In this document: positions 1,792-13,208 of the stretch, piece by piece | How the letters are laid out: each line of letters opens with the position of its first letter | Position numbering within the stretch: position 1 is the first letter of the stretch | DNA from: Comamonadaceae bacterium | GTDB taxonomy: Bacteria; Pseudomonadota; Gammaproteobacteria; Burkholderiales; Burkholderiaceae_C | Direction: 5' to 3' | Assembly: GCA_947457975.1 (NCBI GenBank) | Contig: CANGYC010000038.1 | Span: 1 to 13,208, forward strand | Length of the DNA: 13,208 nt | The notes under the pieces: generated by a model | What the model was told of the DNA's origin: nothing | Databases searched by the model: none | The model's input: the letters and a program-made list of their open reading frames with translations, nothing else | Made by a program: the position numbers and the translations under genes

Positions 1792-2460
1792 ATGAACGAG
1801 ACCACTTCGCCTGAGCTGAACCTGCAGGAGCCTCAGGGCCCTGCGCTGGAGCTGGATGCGGCCCCTCCGAGAAACCTGAAGTCCGATTCGGGGACACCCC
1901 TGGCCGTGGGTGTCCTGGCCGTGATCGCCCTGCTGGCCGCCCTGCTGCTGGTGCCCATGAGCCGAGATACCGAGTCGGGGTCGATGGCCGATGCATCGCC
2001 AACCATGGGCTGGCTAGACGCCCTGCGCCGGCTCCTGCCCGGCCAGGACGACGACGCTGACGATGTGGAGATCAGCATGCCCGAGGCGAGCCCCGCCCCG
2101 GGTGCCGACCCCTTCGCAGTGCCGCAGCTGAGGGCACTCAAGGGCCAGTCCTGCCTCAATTACCTACCCGGGGGCAATACCACCGCCGTCCGCCAGGCTG
2201 TAGCCGACCTGCTGTGGGAAAAGCTCGACGACAGCGTTCAGGCGGTGATGCTGGAGCGGCTTGAGATGTGCACCCCCTTCGAGGCCGTCAGCGGGGACGT
2301 GATCAGCGCCGGTGGCTGCCGCAAGGGAGAATGCGGCCGAAATGACGCGAGCTTTTACATCAACACCCAGGGCAAGGTGGCGGTTGATTACCGCGTGGAC
2401 GGCGTCTGTAACCAGGCCACGGAAGACGGCTTCACCCAGACTCGCCTGCTGTGCCAGTAA
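1792..2460 (+). CDS. Single-pass membrane protein with Cys-rich C-terminal domain, function unknown
   Basis: The 222-residue protein has an N-terminal cytoplasmic stretch rich in Pro and Glu (1-35), one transmembrane helix at about 37-56, and an acidic, low-complexity linker (about 85-110 with DDDADD). The C-terminal domain (about 113-222) carries six cysteines at 121, 160, 176, 181, 206 and 221. If the helix is oriented N-in/C-out, this domain is periplasmic and three disulfides are possible; that is an inference. The start at 1792 is preferred over an in-frame ATG at 1699 because the longer version overlaps 86 bp of the preceding gene and adds an arginine-rich, unnatural-looking N-terminus. 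No strong Shine-Dalgarno precedes 1792. With the seven-base gap from the upstream stop, this suggests translational coupling to the preceding membrane protein. No known family is recognised. Confidence 0.85.
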   Translation: MNETTSPELNLQEPQGPALELDAAPPRNLKSDSGTPLAVGVLAVIALLAALLLVPMSRDTESGSMADASPTMGWLDALRRLLPGQDDDADDVEISMPEASPAPGADPFAVPQLRALKGQSCLNYLPGGNTTAVRQAVADLLWEKLDDSVQAVMLERLEMCTPFEAVSGDVISAGGCRKGECGRNDASFYINTQGKVAVDYRVDGVCNQATEDGFTQTRLLCQ

Positions 2461-5570: not shown

Positions 5571-6479
5571 TCAGCTGCCCGGGATGATGCCCGGCGGCAG
5601 GCTGTAGCAGTAGTCGGCAATCTCGCCGGGGCGCGCCAGCCACATCCGGTCGCGGTGAGGGCTTTGCAGGCAGTGCTGCAGGGCCTTGCGCAGCAGGCGC
5701 AGGCGGAAGGGCTGGCCGAAGATGTTGGTGTGCACCGTGATGTTCATCACCAGCGGGTGCGTACGGCACTGCTCGATCATCTCGTCGAACTGGTTGACGA
5801 TCATGTCGCAGAACTCGCTGGCATCCTGCTTGCGGTGCGTGATGACCTGCGAATCGTTGATCTCGATGGGATAGGGCACCGAGAGGATGGGGCCGCTGCG
5901 GGTGCGCATCCAGATGGGCTGGTCGTCCATGGGCCAGTCCATCAGGTACTTGAAGCCGGCCTCCTTGAGCAGGTCCGGGGTGTGCGCCGTCTCGTAGGCG
6001 CCCGAGCCCATCCAGCCTGTGGGCGCCTTGCCCTCGTGGGCCACGAAAGCCTGAATCACGTCCTGCAGGATGCGCTCCTCGTCGGCCTCCCACATGCCGC
6101 GGTGGTTCTCGGCGTTGGTGCGGCCGTGGCCGATGAACTCGTCGCCGCGGCGACGAATTTCATCCATGATCTGCGGCGCATACTCGTAGAGCAGGCTGTT
6201 GACGTTGTGCCCCGCGGGAATCTTCAGCTCGTCCAGTAGATCAAACAGACGCCAGACGCCAATGCGGTTGCCGTAGTCGCGCCAGGCGAAGTTGCGATGG
6301 GTCTGCGGCTCGCCTGTCTTGGCCGGGTCGTGGCCATTGCCCGCACCAAAGGCAAAGCACTCGATGTTGGTGGTCACCACGAAGGCCAGGCGCGCACCGC
6401 CGGGCCAGTCGTAGTCCTTGCGCTCGGGAAGGGGAATGTAGTCGTAGCGGCTGTGGCGCGGCAGCAGGGGGCGGGGCAT
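5571..6479 (-). CDS. PuuE-like polysaccharide deacetylase family hydrolase
   Basis: The 302-residue protein belongs to the NodB/polysaccharide deacetylase fold, in the branch that includes the allantoinase PuuE. Features include PLPER then DWPGGARLAF (17-33), TTNIECFAFG (36-45), DYGNRIGVWRLFDLLDEL (68-85), GHGRTNAENHRGM (117-129, His118 and His126), GWMGSG, and a late TVHTNIFGQP with His250. The Asp-Asp dyad normal in NodB-type deacetylases is replaced by Asn-Ile-Glu at 38-40, as in the PuuE-like branch, so hydrolysis of a small cyclic amide or ureide is more likely than sugar deacetylation. I start at the ATG at 6479 because AGGAG stands eight bases upstream; an in-frame GTG 36 bp further up lacks this. 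It is the first gene of the minus-strand unit. The exact substrate is unknown, and allantoin is only one possibility. Confidence 0.9.
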   Translation of the reverse strand: MPRPLLPRHSRYDYIPLPERKDYDWPGGARLAFVVTTNIECFAFGAGNGHDPAKTGEPQTHRNFAWRDYGNRIGVWRLFDLLDELKIPAGHNVNSLLYEYAPQIMDEIRRRGDEFIGHGRTNAENHRGMWEADEERILQDVIQAFVAHEGKAPTGWMGSGAYETAHTPDLLKEAGFKYLMDWPMDDQPIWMRTRSGPILSVPYPIEINDSQVITHRKQDASEFCDMIVNQFDEMIEQCRTHPLVMNITVHTNIFGQPFRLRLLRKALQHCLQSPHRDRMWLARPGEIADYCYSLPPGIIPGS

Positions 6480-6487
6480 GCGGTGAT

Positions 6488-6492
6488 CTCCT
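6488..6492 (-). promoter_or_regulatory. Ribosome binding site fixing the start of the PuuE-like gene
   Basis: AGGAG on the minus strand lies eight bases before the ATG at 6479. It falls inside the longer reading frame that would begin with GTG at 6515, which is why the shorter protein is chosen. Confidence 0.85.
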
Positions 6493-6554
6493 GGTGATTG
6501 AAGTCTCCCGGGCACGCGCCTTGCATTCGGCTGCGCCCATAGACAGTGCGGCGC

Positions 6555-6584: not shown

Positions 6585-6600
6585 TTGATCACTTAATGTG

Positions 6601-6613
6601 TCCATTTAATGGA
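6601..6613. promoter_or_regulatory. Candidate operator, perfect palindrome TCCATT-T-AATGGA
   Basis: A perfect 6-1-6 inverted repeat ends 16 bp upstream of the minus-strand -35. Its TCCA...TGGA arms are of the kind seen in IclR-family operators such as the E. coli IclR site. The nearby IclR gene at 7908 is the obvious candidate to bind it. A position upstream of -35 suits activation; this is inference. Confidence 0.6.
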
Positions 6614-6734
6614 ACAAAAGGGAAAGTTTTCGACCCTGCCCGCATTCGCGCCTTTGCTTCGCACTTTTGCTGCCGATGATCTGGCCGACTGAAATCCAAG
6701 CCCTGCTGCACGCCTCTGTAACCAGGCTAATAAG

Positions 6735-6890: not shown

Positions 6891-7871
6891 ATGCAGAAGA
6901 CCTCTTTGAACGCGCTCTGGGCCACCCTCGCCTGCGCTCTGGCCCTGGCAGGACCTGCCGCCGCGCAAACCGCGAACTACCCGTCCAAGCCCATCACCCT
7001 GGTGATCGGCTTCACGCCGGGCGGCATCTCGGACGTGCTATCCCGGGCCCTGGCGGCGCGGCTGACAGCGCAGATGGGACAAAACGTGGTGGTGGAGAAC
7101 AAGGCCGGTGCGGGCACCACCATCGCCTCGGCCTTTGTGGCCGCCGCCGCGCCGGACGGCTACACGCTCTATTTCCAGGACATGACCACGCATGCCATCA
7201 GCGCGGCCACCTACAAGAAGTTGCGCTACGACTCGTGGAACGATTTCACGATGGTCAGCCTGGTCGCCTCCACGCCCCTGATGCTGGTCTCCAGCATCGC
7301 CTCGGGCGCCAAGGACGTGAAGACCCTGGTGGCCCAGGCCAAGGCCAGGCCCGACCAGATCGTCTACGCCTCCTCAGGCAATGGCGCCATCACGCACCTG
7401 GTTGGTGAATCCTTCAAGCAGCTCACGGGCACCAAAGCCCTGCATGCACCTTACAAGGGCAGCTCGCCCGCCACGCAGGCCATCATTGCTGGCGAGGTGA
7501 TGTACACCTTCTCCACCATGCCGCCCGCGGTCACCCAGTCCAAGGGCGGTCGCGTCTATCCGCTGGCCGTGACCTCGGGCAAGCGTGTCAATGCAGCGCC
7601 GGATGTACCCACGCTCAAGGAACTGGGCCTGCCCCTGGAAGTGCTGCTTTACAGCGGCGTGATGGGCCCCAAAGGCATGCCGCAGGAAATCGTCGAGCGC
7701 CTGGGCAACGAAATCAGGAAGGCCCTGGCCAGCCCCGAAATGAGGACCACACTGGCCAACGCCGGTGCCGAAGAGATGCCCAGCACGCCCGCCGAGTTCG
7801 CCGCCCTGATGAAAGTGGAGTCTGAAAAGATGGCCCGGGCGGTTCAACTCGCTGGCGTGACGCAGGACTGA
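6891..7871 (+). CDS. Second Bug/TctC-family periplasmic substrate-binding protein
   Basis: The 326-residue protein is a TTT-type periplasmic receptor. A signal peptide occupies about 1-25 (cleavage near AAA-QT). Family marks are PITLVIGFTPGGISDVLSR (34-52, with Asp48), VVENKAGAGTT, PDGYTLYF, APYKGSSPA and APDVPTLKELG. It differs clearly from the binding protein at 4462-5445 in the loops that contact ligand (GGISD here, GGQGD there; NKAGAG here, NRPGVSG there), so the two probably bind related but different ligands or serve different roles, such as uptake and sensing. AAAGGA at 6878-6883 is a good ribosome binding site. It is divergent from the catabolic genes, and the IclR regulator follows after 36 bp, probably in the same transcript. 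No TctA/TctB partner is seen in the window. Confidence 0.95.
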   Translation: MQKTSLNALWATLACALALAGPAAAQTANYPSKPITLVIGFTPGGISDVLSRALAARLTAQMGQNVVVENKAGAGTTIASAFVAAAAPDGYTLYFQDMTTHAISAATYKKLRYDSWNDFTMVSLVASTPLMLVSSIASGAKDVKTLVAQAKARPDQIVYASSGNGAITHLVGESFKQLTGTKALHAPYKGSSPATQAIIAGEVMYTFSTMPPAVTQSKGGRVYPLAVTSGKRVNAAPDVPTLKELGLPLEVLLYSGVMGPKGMPQEIVERLGNEIRKALASPEMRTTLANAGAEEMPSTPAEFAALMKVESEKMARAVQLAGVTQD

Positions 7872-7897: not shown

Positions 7898-7901
7898 GAG
7901 G
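7898..7901 (+). promoter_or_regulatory. Shine-Dalgarno GAGG pointing at an ATC start codon
   Basis: GAGG at 7898-7901 lies six bases before ATC at 7908-7910. No ATG, GTG or TTG exists in that frame between the stop codon TAG at 7902 and the GTG at 7977. This spacing is what identifies ATC as the likely start of the IclR gene. Confidence 0.6.
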
Positions 7902-7907
7902 TAGCCT

Positions 7908-8684
7908 ATCCCCGCTGAATCGACCCAGGTTGCCGGCACGCAGACCATCAGTCGGGCCATTCGTGCCCTGCGCCTGGTGGCGACGCAGTCGGCCAACGGC
8001 ATGCGCCTGGTCGACCTGGCGCAGCAGATGGGCCTGGAGCGCCCCACGGCCCACCGCCTGCTCAAGGCGCTGATGCACGAGGGCCTGCTGGTCAGGCACG
8101 AGGGCAGCCGCCGGTACAGCCTGGGGCCGCAGCTGTTCGAGCTGGGCCTGGCGGCCACACACCACTTCAACCTGCGCGATGTCTGCCAGCCCGTCTGCAC
8201 CTACTTGGCGGAGCAGACGGGCGACACGTCCTTTCTGTTCCTGCGCAGCGGACACGACGCCATCTGCATTTCACGCACCCAGGGCAGCTACCCCATCCAG
8301 ACGCCCTTCGTGCCCATGGGCAGCCGGCAACCGCTGGGTGTGAGCGCAGGCGGGCTGGCCCTGCTGACGGCCCTTCCTGCGGCAGAGATCGAGGCCATCA
8401 TCAGCGCCATCGAACCCAGGCTGCCGGCCTACGGCGACCTGACGGCCGACAAACTCAGGGACTTGTGCGCACTGGGCCAGCGCCAGGGCCACGCCCTGAC
8501 AGAGAACCACGCCGTGCCCGGGGTGCGGGCCATCGGCCTGCCCATCTGCGATGTCTCACAGCGGCCGATTGCCGCCATCTCGGTGGCCTCCACCCAGACC
8601 CGCATGAGCGAGCAGCGCATCAGCGCCATCCTGCCCATGCTCAGGCAGGCGGCCCAGGAGATTTCTCGGCTCCTGCAGCAGTAG
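7908..8684 (+). CDS. IclR-family transcriptional regulator, probable ATC start
   Basis: The 258-residue protein (start at 7908) has the two IclR-family domains. The N-terminal winged helix-turn-helix (about 8-75) contains TQTISRAIRALRLV, then GMRLVDLAQQMGLERPTAHRLLKAL with the recognition helix, and the wing HEGSRRYSLG. The C-terminal effector domain (about 85-258) has GDTSFLFLRSG, PLGVSAGGLALL, and AIGLPICD then AAISVAS near the end. Starting at GTG 7977 would give 235 residues but would remove the first DNA-binding helix and has no Shine-Dalgarno. The frame upstream encodes a normal IclR N-terminus back to ATC at 7908, which has GAGG at the right distance. The gene therefore either uses a non-canonical AUC start or carries an ATG-to-ATC change. 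It lies 36 bp after the binding-protein gene and is the natural regulator of the divergent cluster; its ligand is unknown. Confidence 0.9.
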   Translation: MPAESTQVAGTQTISRAIRALRLVATQSANGMRLVDLAQQMGLERPTAHRLLKALMHEGLLVRHEGSRRYSLGPQLFELGLAATHHFNLRDVCQPVCTYLAEQTGDTSFLFLRSGHDAICISRTQGSYPIQTPFVPMGSRQPLGVSAGGLALLTALPAAEIEAIISAIEPRLPAYGDLTADKLRDLCALGQRQGHALTENHAVPGVRAIGLPICDVSQRPIAAISVASTQTRMSEQRISAILPMLRQAAQEISRLLQQ

Positions 8685-8810: not shown

Positions 8811-11246
8811 GTGCCCTTCCAACCTGCCACCCTGCGCCCGACTGCTGAGCTTGCCAGCAAGCTCACCGGGGTCGAACCTGCAGCCGCTCCCTCACCCGCT
8901 GCCAGCCCGGCGCTGCTGACCACACGGGGGCTCATGCAAGGCAGCCCCCTGCCCATGCTGTTGTGGTGGGGAGCAGACCAGACGCTCCAGTGCAACGAGG
9001 CCTACCAGCGGCTGATCGGGCAAAGCGCAGCCGCGCTGCAACCCCAGGCCTGGGGACCGCAGTGGAGCGAAGTGGCCAGCTACATCGAGCAGGTCCAGGC
9101 CACGGGACAGGTGGTCTGGCACGAGAACGCGCACCTGCTTCTGCCCCATGCGCCGGCCGGCGAGTTCTGCGGCACCTACAGCTACAACCCGGTGTATGGC
9201 GCCGCTGGTGTCGAAGGCGTGCTCTTCATCTGCTCACGTCACTACCGGGCCAGCACGGTGCATGCGGACGGCCGATTCGGCTATGCGGCCGTCATTCACT
9301 CCATGGACATGGGCTTTGCCATCGTGGAGGCGGTGAACACGCCTGCAGGCGAGCTCTTGGACTACTGCTTCATCGAAGTCAACCCGGCCTGGGCCATCCA
9401 GACGGGCATGCGCGAGGTGCAGGGCAAGTGCATCAACGAGATCGCCAAGGACCAGCGCGAACCCTTCTGGGCCCAAACCATCGGGGAGGTGATCGCCACA
9501 GGCTTGGCCGTGCGCGCCACCACCGCATCGAGCTATCTGCAGCGCAACCTGGATGTGTATGCCATGCGCCTGGGCGGGCCTGGCAGCCGGCAGGTGGCTC
9601 TGCTGGTGCGCGACATCACGAAAAAGACCCAGTCACTGGAGGCCCTGCAACGCAGCGAACAGCGCGCACGGGCTGAGGCCGAGCGGGCCGAAGCCGAGCG
9701 CCAGCGGCTCGACGCTGTGCTGGAGGCCACGCCGGTGGCCATGTTCGTGGCCAACGAGCACGGCGAGTTCATGAGCGCCAATTCGCGGGCGCGCGAAGAA
9801 TGGGGCACCCATCCCCAGGCCAGCAGTCAGCACTGGATGGGCTGGTGGGCCGACGGGCAGGCACGGCATGGCCAGCGCCTGGACCGCAGCGAATGGCCGC
9901 TCAACCGCGCCTTAAAGGGCGAGGTCTCACGCGAGATCATCGAAATCGCTTCGCCCGAAGATGCCAGCCAGCGCAAGATCTACGTGGTGACCGGCTCGCC
10001 CATCTTCCAAGAGGGCGCCGATGGCCGACGCATCAAGGGCGCCGTGGTCGCTGGCATGGAGATCACCGACCGCGCACGGGCCGAGGAGGCGCTGCAGGAA
10101 GCGCACCTGCGCAAGGACGAATTCCTGGCCATGCTGGCCCACGAGCTGCGCAACCCACTGGCGCCCATAGGCGCTGCGGCCGAACTCATGAGTCGGCCCA
10201 ACGCAGGCAAGGAGCTGATGCTGCGCACCAGCGCCATCATCGCCCGGCAGGTGCGGCACATGACTGGCCTGGTCGATGACCTGCTGGACATGTCGCGGGT
10301 GAGTCGGGGCACCATCACCCTGGACAAAGAGTGCCTGGACACCACCTCGGTGCTCAACGACGCCGTCGAACAGGTCACGCCCCTGCTGCGCGCCAAGCGC
10401 CACCGGCTGGAGCTGGAGCCGCTCAGCCAGCCGCTGCTCTTTGAAGGTGACCGCAAGCGGGTCATCCAAGTCCTAAGCAACCTGCTGAACAACGCCATCA
10501 AGTACACGCCCGAAGGGGGCCTGATTCGTCTGTCCATGACCCAGGTGGACGAACACCTGGAGATCCGCATCACAGACAACGGCCAGGGGATGGACGGCAC
10601 CACGCTGGCGCATGCCTTCGAGCTCTTCGTGCAGGCCAAGCGCAGCTCCGACCGGCAGCTGGGCGGGCTGGGCATCGGACTGGCCCTGGTCAAGAAGCTG
10701 GTGGAGCTCCATGGCGGCCAGGTCAGCGCGCACAGCCGCGGTCTGGGCCAGGGCAGCGAATTCCTGGTGTGCTTACCCAGCAGCCGACGCGGCTCACCCC
10801 CCGCGGGCATGAAGGCGGCAGCCGCGCGGGCGGCCACGCACAGTCTGCAGGTGATGGTGGTGGACGACCATGTCGACGCCGCCACCACCCTGGCCATGCT
10901 CATCGAATCGGAGGGCTACGCCTGCAGCGTCAAGCACCAGCCCGAAGAGGCGCTGGAGGCTTCTCGCCAACAGGCCTGCGATGTGTTTGTTCTAGACATC
11001 GGCCTGCCCGGCATGGACGGCCGCGAGATGGCCCGCCGCCTGCGCGCCCAGCCTGCGACCACGTCGGCCCTCCTGATTGCGCTGTCGGGCTACGCGCAAC
11101 CCGAAGACAAGAAAGCCGCCTTCTCCGCCGGCTTCGACCACTACCTGGTCAAGCCGGTGGACACCGCGCAGCTGCTGGACCTGCTGGCCGAGCGCGCCGC
11201 GCAGCTGCGGGCAGGCGAGCAAGCCGCACAGGATCGACCGGGCTGA
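8811..11246 (+). CDS. Hybrid sensor histidine kinase / response regulator with PAS domains
   Basis: The 811-residue protein has a Pro/Ala-rich N-terminus (1-45), PAS-like sensor regions at about 46-145, 158-270 and 300-420 (the second ends LLVRDIT and is followed by an Arg/Glu-rich coiled coil, 271-300), then the kinase core. The H box is LAHELRNPL with phospho-acceptor His444, the N box NLLNNAIKYTPEGG (from 557), the G1 box DNGQGMD (Asp589) and the G2 box GLGIGLALV. A C-terminal receiver (about 690-800) has VMVVDDH, phospho-acceptor Asp729 in VLDIGLPGMDG, IALSGY and Lys781 in LVKPVD. No transmembrane helix is seen, so it senses an internal signal. All catalytic residues look intact. The GTG at 8811 is the first start after an in-frame stop but has no clear Shine-Dalgarno; ATG at 8934, just before the first PAS region, is a possible alternative. 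No cognate output regulator is adjacent. It may act by phosphotransfer or as a stand-alone regulator. Confidence 0.94.
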   Translation: MPFQPATLRPTAELASKLTGVEPAAAPSPAASPALLTTRGLMQGSPLPMLLWWGADQTLQCNEAYQRLIGQSAAALQPQAWGPQWSEVASYIEQVQATGQVVWHENAHLLLPHAPAGEFCGTYSYNPVYGAAGVEGVLFICSRHYRASTVHADGRFGYAAVIHSMDMGFAIVEAVNTPAGELLDYCFIEVNPAWAIQTGMREVQGKCINEIAKDQREPFWAQTIGEVIATGLAVRATTASSYLQRNLDVYAMRLGGPGSRQVALLVRDITKKTQSLEALQRSEQRARAEAERAEAERQRLDAVLEATPVAMFVANEHGEFMSANSRAREEWGTHPQASSQHWMGWWADGQARHGQRLDRSEWPLNRALKGEVSREIIEIASPEDASQRKIYVVTGSPIFQEGADGRRIKGAVVAGMEITDRARAEEALQEAHLRKDEFLAMLAHELRNPLAPIGAAAELMSRPNAGKELMLRTSAIIARQVRHMTGLVDDLLDMSRVSRGTITLDKECLDTTSVLNDAVEQVTPLLRAKRHRLELEPLSQPLLFEGDRKRVIQVLSNLLNNAIKYTPEGGLIRLSMTQVDEHLEIRITDNGQGMDGTTLAHAFELFVQAKRSSDRQLGGLGIGLALVKKLVELHGGQVSAHSRGLGQGSEFLVCLPSSRRGSPPAGMKAAAARAATHSLQVMVVDDHVDAATTLAMLIESEGYACSVKHQPEEALEASRQQACDVFVLDIGLPGMDGREMARRLRAQPATTSALLIALSGYAQPEDKKAAFSAGFDHYLVKPVDTAQLLDLLAERAAQLRAGEQAAQDRPG

Positions 11247-12606: not shown

Positions 12607-13208
12607 TCAGCAGCTTCTTAGCGCCCAGAAGTAGGTGCTGATGGTCGGCACATACCCCGGGTTGGCGAATTTAGCCAGATAGGTCTTGCCGCTGTAGCTG
12701 ACCACACTGCCCGTCGCGTAGTACTTGCCCTGCACCCAGGCGGTGGCCGTGGTAGTGCATGAGGTGGGTGCCGATGCGGAGGTCGTGCTGGTCGGCACGT
12801 ACAAGGACCACAGCTTAGGCGTCCACTCCGGCGCGGAGTTCACGTTCCAGGTGGTGGCCGACAGGGACGTGGCGACATAGAGCTTGCCCAGGCGGGTGAC
12901 GATATTGCCCGAGGCATAACGGGTGGTGGTGTTCCATTCCGGGTAAGAAACCGCAGCCGGTGCCGGTGCCGGTGCCGGTGCCGGTGCCGGTGCCGGTGCG
13001 GGTGCGGGTGCGGGTGCCGGGGCCGGAGCCGTGCTGGTGGGCACGTACAGGGACCAGAGCGTGGGCGACCACTCCGGCGCGGAGTTCACATTCCAGGCGG
13101 TGACCGACAGAGGCGTGGCGATATAGAGCTTGCCCAGACGGGTAACGATGTCGCCCGAGGCATAGCGGGTGGTGGTGTTCCATTCCGAGTAAGAGACAGG
13201 CGCAGGTG
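12607..13208 (-). CDS. C-terminal part of a protein with repeated CBM5/12-like carbohydrate-binding modules
   Basis: The frame is open from the right edge of the window to TGA at 12607-12609, with 199 residues visible; the N-terminus and any catalytic domain lie outside. It contains two nearly identical modules of the chitin-binding CBM5/12 type, each with an early Trp, then Tyr-Ala-Ser-Gly, a VTRLGKLY strand, an ALA/AT stretch, and Trp-Asn near the end with PEW and LWSLYVP. A long Ala-Pro linker separates them. A third, divergent module at the C-terminus (ATAWVQGKYYATGSVVSYSG onward) is flanked by Cys residues (TSC before it and a final Cys). Such architecture is typical of secreted chitinases, other polysaccharide hydrolases and surface-binding proteins. 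A start at GTG 13089 inside module 1 would be artefactual. The class is clear; the enzyme activity is not visible in this window. Confidence 0.85.
   Translation of the reverse strand, partial: PAPVSYSEWNTTTRYASGDIVTRLGKLYIATPLSVTAWNVNSAPEWSPTLWSLYVPTSTAPAPAPAPAPAPAPAPAPAPAPAPAAVSYPEWNTTTRYASGNIVTRLGKLYVATSLSATTWNVNSAPEWTPKLWSLYVPTSTTSASAPTSCTTTATAWVQGKYYATGSVVSYSGKTYLAKFANPGYVPTISTYFWALRSC
12785..13198 (-). repeat. Two-copy direct repeat, period 246 bp, encoding CBM modules
   Basis: About 168 bp at 12785-12952 recurs at 13031-13198 with a period of 246 bp (82 codons), at roughly 90 percent identity by eye. Frame is kept throughout, so it is a recent intragenic module duplication rather than chance. 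The Ala-Pro linker DNA fills the space between the copies. Confidence 0.88.
12956..13027 (-). repeat. Hexanucleotide microsatellite encoding the Ala-Pro linker
   Basis: About twelve tandem six-base units of the GGTGCC type (plus-strand reading, with several GGTGCG and one GGGGCC variants) encode repeated Ala-Pro. A six-base unit keeps the frame, so changes in copy number alter linker length without stopping translation. Confidence 0.9.

Follow-up and report, generated by a model that had tools for sequence, protein, structure and literature searches.

A conserved AUU/AUC codon as the probable translation start of an IclR-family regulator gene in Comamonadaceae

The window analyzed here is a stretch of 13,208 nucleotides from a Comamonadaceae bacterium, making up contig C38 of a draft assembly that totals 2.31 Mb in 302 contigs, with a completeness of 78%. 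A gene for a TctC/Bug-type solute-binding protein is followed by a gene for an IclR-family transcriptional regulator, and a polysaccharide-deacetylase-type gene diverges from tctC. The coordinates are collected in Table 1. Directly downstream of iclR, a hybrid sensor histidine kinase gene (PAS, HisKA, HATPase, and receiver domains; listed GTG start) occupies positions 8811–11246; in seven relatives, whose stretches are in some cases short (0.6 kb past iclR in G027), no matching gene was found. An open frame on the minus strand (12607–13206), encoding an Ala-Pro repeat linker between repeated domains, runs off the contig end.

Table 1. Features of the iclR locus and the infC gene of the same genome; positions refer to the window unless another contig is named.
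Feature	Position	Strand	Remarks
PuuE-like (polysaccharide-deacetylase-type) gene, divergent	5571..6515	−	82–84% identical and in the same place in seven relatives
Predicted operator 1 for IclR, GTCCATTTAATGGAA palindrome	6600..6614	+	Adjoins minus-strand −35-like TTGACA; putative function
Predicted operator 2 for IclR, GTCCAAATAATGAAA	6734..6748	+	Upstream of the tctC −35-like TTGACA; putative function
TctC/Bug-type solute-binding protein gene	6891..7871	+	36 bases upstream of ATC
Shine-Dalgarno GAGG of IclR	7898..7901	+	GAG at −10 to −8 invariant in 8/8
In-frame stop TAG	7902..7904	+	Two codons before ATC; rules out in-frame starts beyond it within the window
IclR-family transcriptional regulator	7908..8684	+	258 aa and stop TAG, counted from ATC; PF09339, PF01614
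Proposed ATC start codon of the IclR regulator	7908..7910	+	ATT in seven orthologues with DNA
GTG codon 24, first canonical in-frame start codon	7977..7979	+	Rejected: no Shine-Dalgarno, 2/8, cuts into the HTH
infC of the window's genome	L047, contig C251, about 2039–2248		Reads ATC-GCT-ACT-GAA after AAGGA

The iclR frame is open from 7905 to the stop codon at 8682–8684. Counted from ATC 7908, the product matched HTH_IclR with residues 13–63 (E 2e-10; 40.6 bits, cut-off 22) and IclR_C with residues 82–254 (E 3e-25; 89.2 bits, cut-off 24), and thus has the N-terminal and C-terminal domains of the IclR family; an earlier note on this DNA was right in stating that the full DNA-binding domain is encoded. 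The top-scoring solved structure by sequence, the IclR structure 1mkm, also aligns from residue 13. All eight listed NCBIfam models for IclR equivalogs and subfamilies (among them BhcR, PcaR/PcaU/PobR, IclR, KdgR, and AllR) scored far under their cut-offs, as illustrated by BhcR (127.7 versus a curated cut-off of 350).

The earlier note had proposed that translation begins at the ATC codon. When the frame was re-read, there was indeed no in-frame ATG, GTG, or TTG from TAG 7902 to GTG 7977, the only codon between the stop and ATC being CCT (7905–7907), and the GAGG motif was found six bases before ATC as described. The CTG codons at positions 21 and 23 of the window gene were missing from the note's list. 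Its two objections to GTG 7977 were likewise borne out: the best Shine-Dalgarno duplex there was +0.6 kcal/mol versus −6.9 kcal/mol at ATC, and with a start at this codon the HTH would lose its first 11 matched residues. These and all further duplex energies rest on the standard anti-Shine-Dalgarno sequence, entered from general knowledge.

Orthologues were searched for in 87 genomes of the window's genus (its own included), in 399 of the family, and in three of the genus of G398. The search gave seven orthologues, with 68–73% amino-acid identity to the window IclR: G087 (L032), G027 (L003), G100 (L033), G005 (L004), G105 (L034), G398 (L039), and G329 (L040), of which G398 and G329 represent a second genus. 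G398 and G329 were the only additions from the draws on the family and the order (399 genomes each) and from 249 relatives of G398; the genomes of the two draws largely coincide and at most six candidates per genome were scored (at most ten in the 249 relatives), making absence weak evidence. A contig scan for further homologues gave one distant locus, and plasmid records held six homologues of at most 48.5% identity. Three loci that duplicate others (L041, L042, L053) were left out of the counts.

The earlier note had also allowed that an ATG had mutated to ATC, or that the base was a sequencing error. ATC is one base away from ATG and the draft genome is fragmented, which speaks for a recently lost start codon or an error in the window. 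However, the results showed that the codon aligned to the window ATC is ATT in 7/7 orthologues and ATG in none; the third base, position 7910 in the window, is T in all seven and G in 0/7, contradicting both readings, and the iclR gene is intact and constrained. Since seven orthologues carry ATT there, neither an error nor an isolated mutation accounts for the start codon, and we consider either of these explanations extremely improbable. The AUC start is favored over both by the seven ATT codons with a GAG at the same distance, kept although synonymous sites are near saturation. All eight sequences with DNA thus have ATY at the start position (ATC in one, ATT in seven), and two protein clusters of a wider group (P0008, P0017) have been called as starting exactly there.

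To count conservation, the eight sequences were anchored at the start codon without gaps. In columns −36 to −1, the sole invariant ones were G, A, and G at −10, −9, and −8, so that a strong, correctly spaced Shine-Dalgarno is found in 8/8. Within the start codon, A and T were invariant and the third base was T in seven sequences and C in one. The spacers between tctC and iclR are otherwise poorly conserved, pairs agreeing at 6 to 20 of 30 bases, except that those of G398 and G329 are identical (30 of 30); these two therefore count as one lineage, and the number of independent lineages is below eight. Folds of the eight start regions, made from single sequences and compared by eye, did not reveal a common structure.

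The possibility exists that each lineage uses a canonical start codon of its own, namely the GTG of codon 24 (7977) in the window and G087, that of codon 8 in five relatives, and an upstream TTG in G105. Such codons exist. An in-frame stop lies 2 to 6 codons upstream of ATY, with no canonical start in between, in 5/8 sequences (window, G087, G005, G027, G100); the frame is open further upstream in G105, G398, and G329, where a TTG precedes ATY by two codons (G105) or six codons (G398 and G329). In G005, the codon directly before ATT is also ATT. The GTG at codon 24 is present in 2/8 sequences (window and G087) and was rejected as a start, lacking both conservation and a Shine-Dalgarno; the GTG at codon 8 is present in 5/8 and was rejected on account of its absence from the window, G087, and G105. 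Among start-like triplets, all eight sequences share ATN (codons 1 and 18), CTG (codons 21 and 23), and ACG (codon 11), and those other than codon 1 encode ordinary residues of the conserved HTH region.

In all frames from −45 to +75, no ATG, GTG, or TTG is common to the eight sequences, and one out-of-frame intragenic triplet is shared by seven. This bears on entry from an out-of-frame upstream start followed by a programmed frameshift, for which G027 offers an ATG in another frame that is open into the gene. The corresponding frame is closed in G005, though, and at a fixed distance no ATG, GTG, or TTG between −45 and the gene is common to even 7/8 sequences in any frame. Frameshift entry, not being conserved, was rejected, and its probability appears negligible.

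Shine-Dalgarno duplexes were compared at seven codon positions, an eighth (codon 32) being outside the stretch. Codon 1 gave −5.6 to −9.9 kcal/mol and was the best of the seven in 8/8 sequences. When the comparison was extended to start-like codons between −10 and 29, it was the best in 6/8 (in G005 tied with the preceding ATT); in G398 and G329, the internal Ile codon 14 (ATT) was 0.1 kcal/mol better. None of the canonical alternatives in the eight sequences had a Shine-Dalgarno comparable to that of codon 1. The GTG at codon 24 gave −2.5 kcal/mol in G087 in addition to the weak value in the window, and the GTG at codon 8 gave −3.5 in one of its five carriers, the remaining four ranging from +0.4 to +1.9. 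The values for ACG codon 11 were −0.9 to −3.5. The TTG of G105 begins one base after GAG, too short a spacing for a Shine-Dalgarno, and the upstream TTG of G398 and G329 has none (+0.1 kcal/mol).

If translation began at GTG 7977, the codons before it would stay untranslated. In codons 9–23, pN/pS was 0.09 over all pairs, and the variable columns were distributed 3/1/12 over the three codon positions; elsewhere the ratio was 0.57 in codons 2–8, which are loose, 0.20 in codons 24–60, and 0.14 in codons 61–258. The last value led us to reject a pseudogene. Codons 9–23 are constrained even in the pair of the window and G087 (pN 0.03, pS 0.78), which both have the GTG at codon 24 and would leave them untranslated under lineage-specific canonical starts. 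By this pattern of substitution, codons 9–23 are under purifying selection and evolve as translated sequence. Synonymous sites are near saturation (pS 0.68–0.78 in codons 61–258 of the seven window pairs), and the ATY codon and its Shine-Dalgarno spacing have therefore survived a long divergence.

As a control, we inspected 30 homologue loci outside the orthologue group. After L023 (match from residue 66) was dropped, 29 loci with a match starting at residue 20 or earlier were left, and 28 of these have an in-frame ATG, GTG, or TTG before the HTH, although some of the frames are long and the canonical codon there may be a chance occurrence; the 29th, L016, is cut by a contig end that puts its start out of view. 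The canonical codon is ATG in 23 of the 28 loci, as compared with 0/8 in the orthologue group. The infC gene served as a second control. It was found in 7/11 genomes searched, at eight loci, of which six were read (those of the window's genome, four genomes of the same genus, and one of two in G329; L048 and L049 were left out). All six show ATC-GCT-ACT-GAA after AAGGA, with no canonical codon earlier in frame. The window's genome thus appears to have a second ATC start of the same kind, in infC.

Database gene calls were compared among 120 proteins listed in a protein search. A separate profile search had, among its best 120 of 391, a further close cluster, P0121 (199 aa, no HTH listed), which was left out of the counts. 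As a working group, 31 of the 120 (P0042 included) were taken as window-like, being the rows of a large tree branch that lie outside its Ramlibacter-type branch; the tree left out P0076–P0120, which were counted among the 58 others. Calls from residue 16 or later were found in 12/31 window-like clusters, 0/31 Ramlibacter-type clusters, and 0/58 others (Fisher p = 1.3e-4 versus Ramlibacter-type and 1.3e-8 versus both, as a guide only, the sequences being related). The source of P0050 marks it as partial, the window itself belongs to cluster P0001, and P0027 differs little from L032. Other clusters with short calls are P0026, P0028, P0029, P0038, P0039, P0052, P0053, P0056, and P0057. The excess of late calls counts in favor of the ATC start. 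It can also be counted in favor of lineage-specific canonical starts, but the weak Shine-Dalgarno sequences at the two GTG codons and the constraint on codons 9–23 speak against such starts, which also leave the invariant GAG-7 nt-ATY arrangement unexplained. We regard them as improbable, and initiation at the ATC codon is, judged from its conservation, most likely.

Eight clusters of the window-like group are called at or upstream of the ATY position. Ile stands there in P0002, P0005, which the search lists under Limnohabitans sp. JirII-31, P0007, and P0013; P0009 has Val by plain count and Ile one residue further, P0019 has Thr, and P0008 and P0017 are the two that start at the position itself. 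The weak start is thus not universal in the wider group, and some relatives may have a canonical codon at that place. Further clusters of the window-like group, namely P0003, P0004, P0006, P0010–P0012, P0014, P0015, P0018, and P0020, have calls beginning at codon 2, 3, or 8, and the first residue of several of them is Leu or Val; the DNA of these clusters may hide further ATY starts. Monophyly of the window-like group was neither rejected nor shown (p-AU 0.317), and in the free tree the window branched off from all 68 other rows, with support open, so that the weak start may have had one or two origins.

The order tctC-iclR is kept in 8/8 sequences with a spacer of 30–36 bases, tctC being 72–79% identical to that of the window, and the two genes are probably co-transcribed. 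The deacetylase gene diverges from tctC in 8/8, its first quarter only being visible in G398 on account of a contig end. In six of the seven relatives (L054–L058, L060), a second deacetylase-like gene, 27–29% similar, lies beside the first, and the G398 contig ends before this position; at the same place the window has another tctC, an isopropylmalate-dehydrogenase-like gene, and an amidohydrolase gene.

The region between tctC and the deacetylase gene contains two conserved GTCCA-N5-TGRAA boxes near −35-like TTGACA elements of both directions. Seven of the eight genomes carry two exact copies of the pattern GTCCANNTNNTGRAA in their loci, and G087 carries one; outside the group it matches only L036, at a single site. 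When the box at 6600 was searched for in the window with up to three mismatches, four matches were found versus 0.05 expected, two of them being the site itself on either strand and the others lying at 6734 and 8740. These boxes are likely operators of the window IclR.

It is also conceivable, though unlikely, that iclR is translated by termination and reinitiation from tctC, the weak ATY start serving more for coupling than for control by IF3. The spacer between the genes is short and near-constant in 8/8, as such coupling would have it. Translationally coupled gene pairs typically overlap, however, and the spacing found here exceeds theirs; moreover, iclR has its own Shine-Dalgarno in all eight sequences. 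Since reinitiation would also take place at the ATY codon, it amounts to a variant of the reading favored here.

Taken together, the IclR regulator is very probably translated from ATC 7908, a conserved AUU/AUC start that presumably is discriminated against by IF3 and keeps this local regulator at a low level. The part concerning IF3 and the low level would follow from the known behavior of such starts (PMC5472188, PMC13009471). According to this reading, the GAGG Shine-Dalgarno would direct initiation at AUC, which the initiator tRNA would read as fMet, and the weak start would be an old, conserved feature of the orthologue group (AUU in seven relatives, AUC here). Discrimination by IF3 against AUC would yield few regulator copies per tctC-iclR mRNA, and the co-directional tctC in front would yield an abundant binding protein. 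The low-copy regulator would then act on the two boxes between the deacetylase gene and tctC, and its level would also track IF3 activity. The regulator would need its whole HTH but only in few copies, the tctC product would be needed in many, and the weak start would set the ratio.

A wider proposal can be made tentatively and is on balance doubtful: an IF3-sensitive AUU/AUC start may be kept by selection in a pathway-specific regulator so that the threshold of one catabolic or uptake module depends on the ratio of IF3 to ribosomes, and weak starts on low-copy local regulators located behind abundant transport genes may be a recurrent design. The design would possibly be unannotated because gene callers truncate such genes.

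Very few conserved starts other than AUG, GUG, and UUG are known in bacteria. A start-codon reconstruction in 36 genome groups covered 61,358 ancestral AUG starts and 5,080 ancestral GUG starts, of which one each had changed to AUU (PMC5622118). The yield of surveys of this kind presumably hinges on annotation, in which AUU is rarely permitted. A literature search for a non-canonical AUU start in IclR, transcriptional regulators, or betaproteobacteria, with most subscription journals outside its reach, gave no report of the case. In the present case, the AUU/AUC start belongs to an ordinary IclR regulator and is kept across eight genomes and two genera. Its interest lies in its being a local regulator, in a lineage for which no such report was found, masked by annotation that places 12/31 calls inside or after the first HTH helix. 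As a case in which start-codon identity would act as a fixed expression setting of a local regulator, it can be tested directly, and the comparative signature, an invariant Shine-Dalgarno-7 nt-ATY arrangement together with group-wide truncated calls, could be used to search for more cases.

Among known systems, infC, the gene of IF3, starts with ATT in E. coli and ATC in Streptomyces (PMC5472188). Like the window iclR, it has a conserved ATY start; unlike iclR, a local transcription regulator gene without such a loop, infC is autoregulated by its product. E. coli pcnB encodes a poly(A) polymerase, not a transcription regulator. It resembles iclR in having an AUU start, which is reported to limit translation. 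In Streptomyces, sigR is described with a GTC start in 32 of 34 species and GTT in two, repression of sigR by IF3, and an upset response when canonical codons were introduced (PMC5472188). sigR resembles iclR as a transcription-regulator gene that keeps a non-canonical start behind a strong Shine-Dalgarno and is misannotated by gene callers, and in a dosage that matters against an operon partner, to which the iclR case can be likened; the differences are that sigR encodes a sigma factor with GTC/GTT shown by experiment, whereas ATC/ATT in the Burkholderiales IclR-family gene comes from comparison only. Start-site mapping in S. aureus gave AUU for cvfC1 and AUA for ccpN, and the authors regard both starts as conserved. 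In poor medium, expression was about 10% of that reached with AUG; in rich medium, ccpN attained up to 30%. These genes share with iclR a conserved non-canonical ATN start, and ccpN represses metabolic genes; they differ in belonging to Firmicutes, in an extended Shine-Dalgarno, in unrelated protein families, and in starts mapped by experiment (PMC13009471). The IclR start would be an addition to the small known set of infC, pcnB, sigR, and ccpN.
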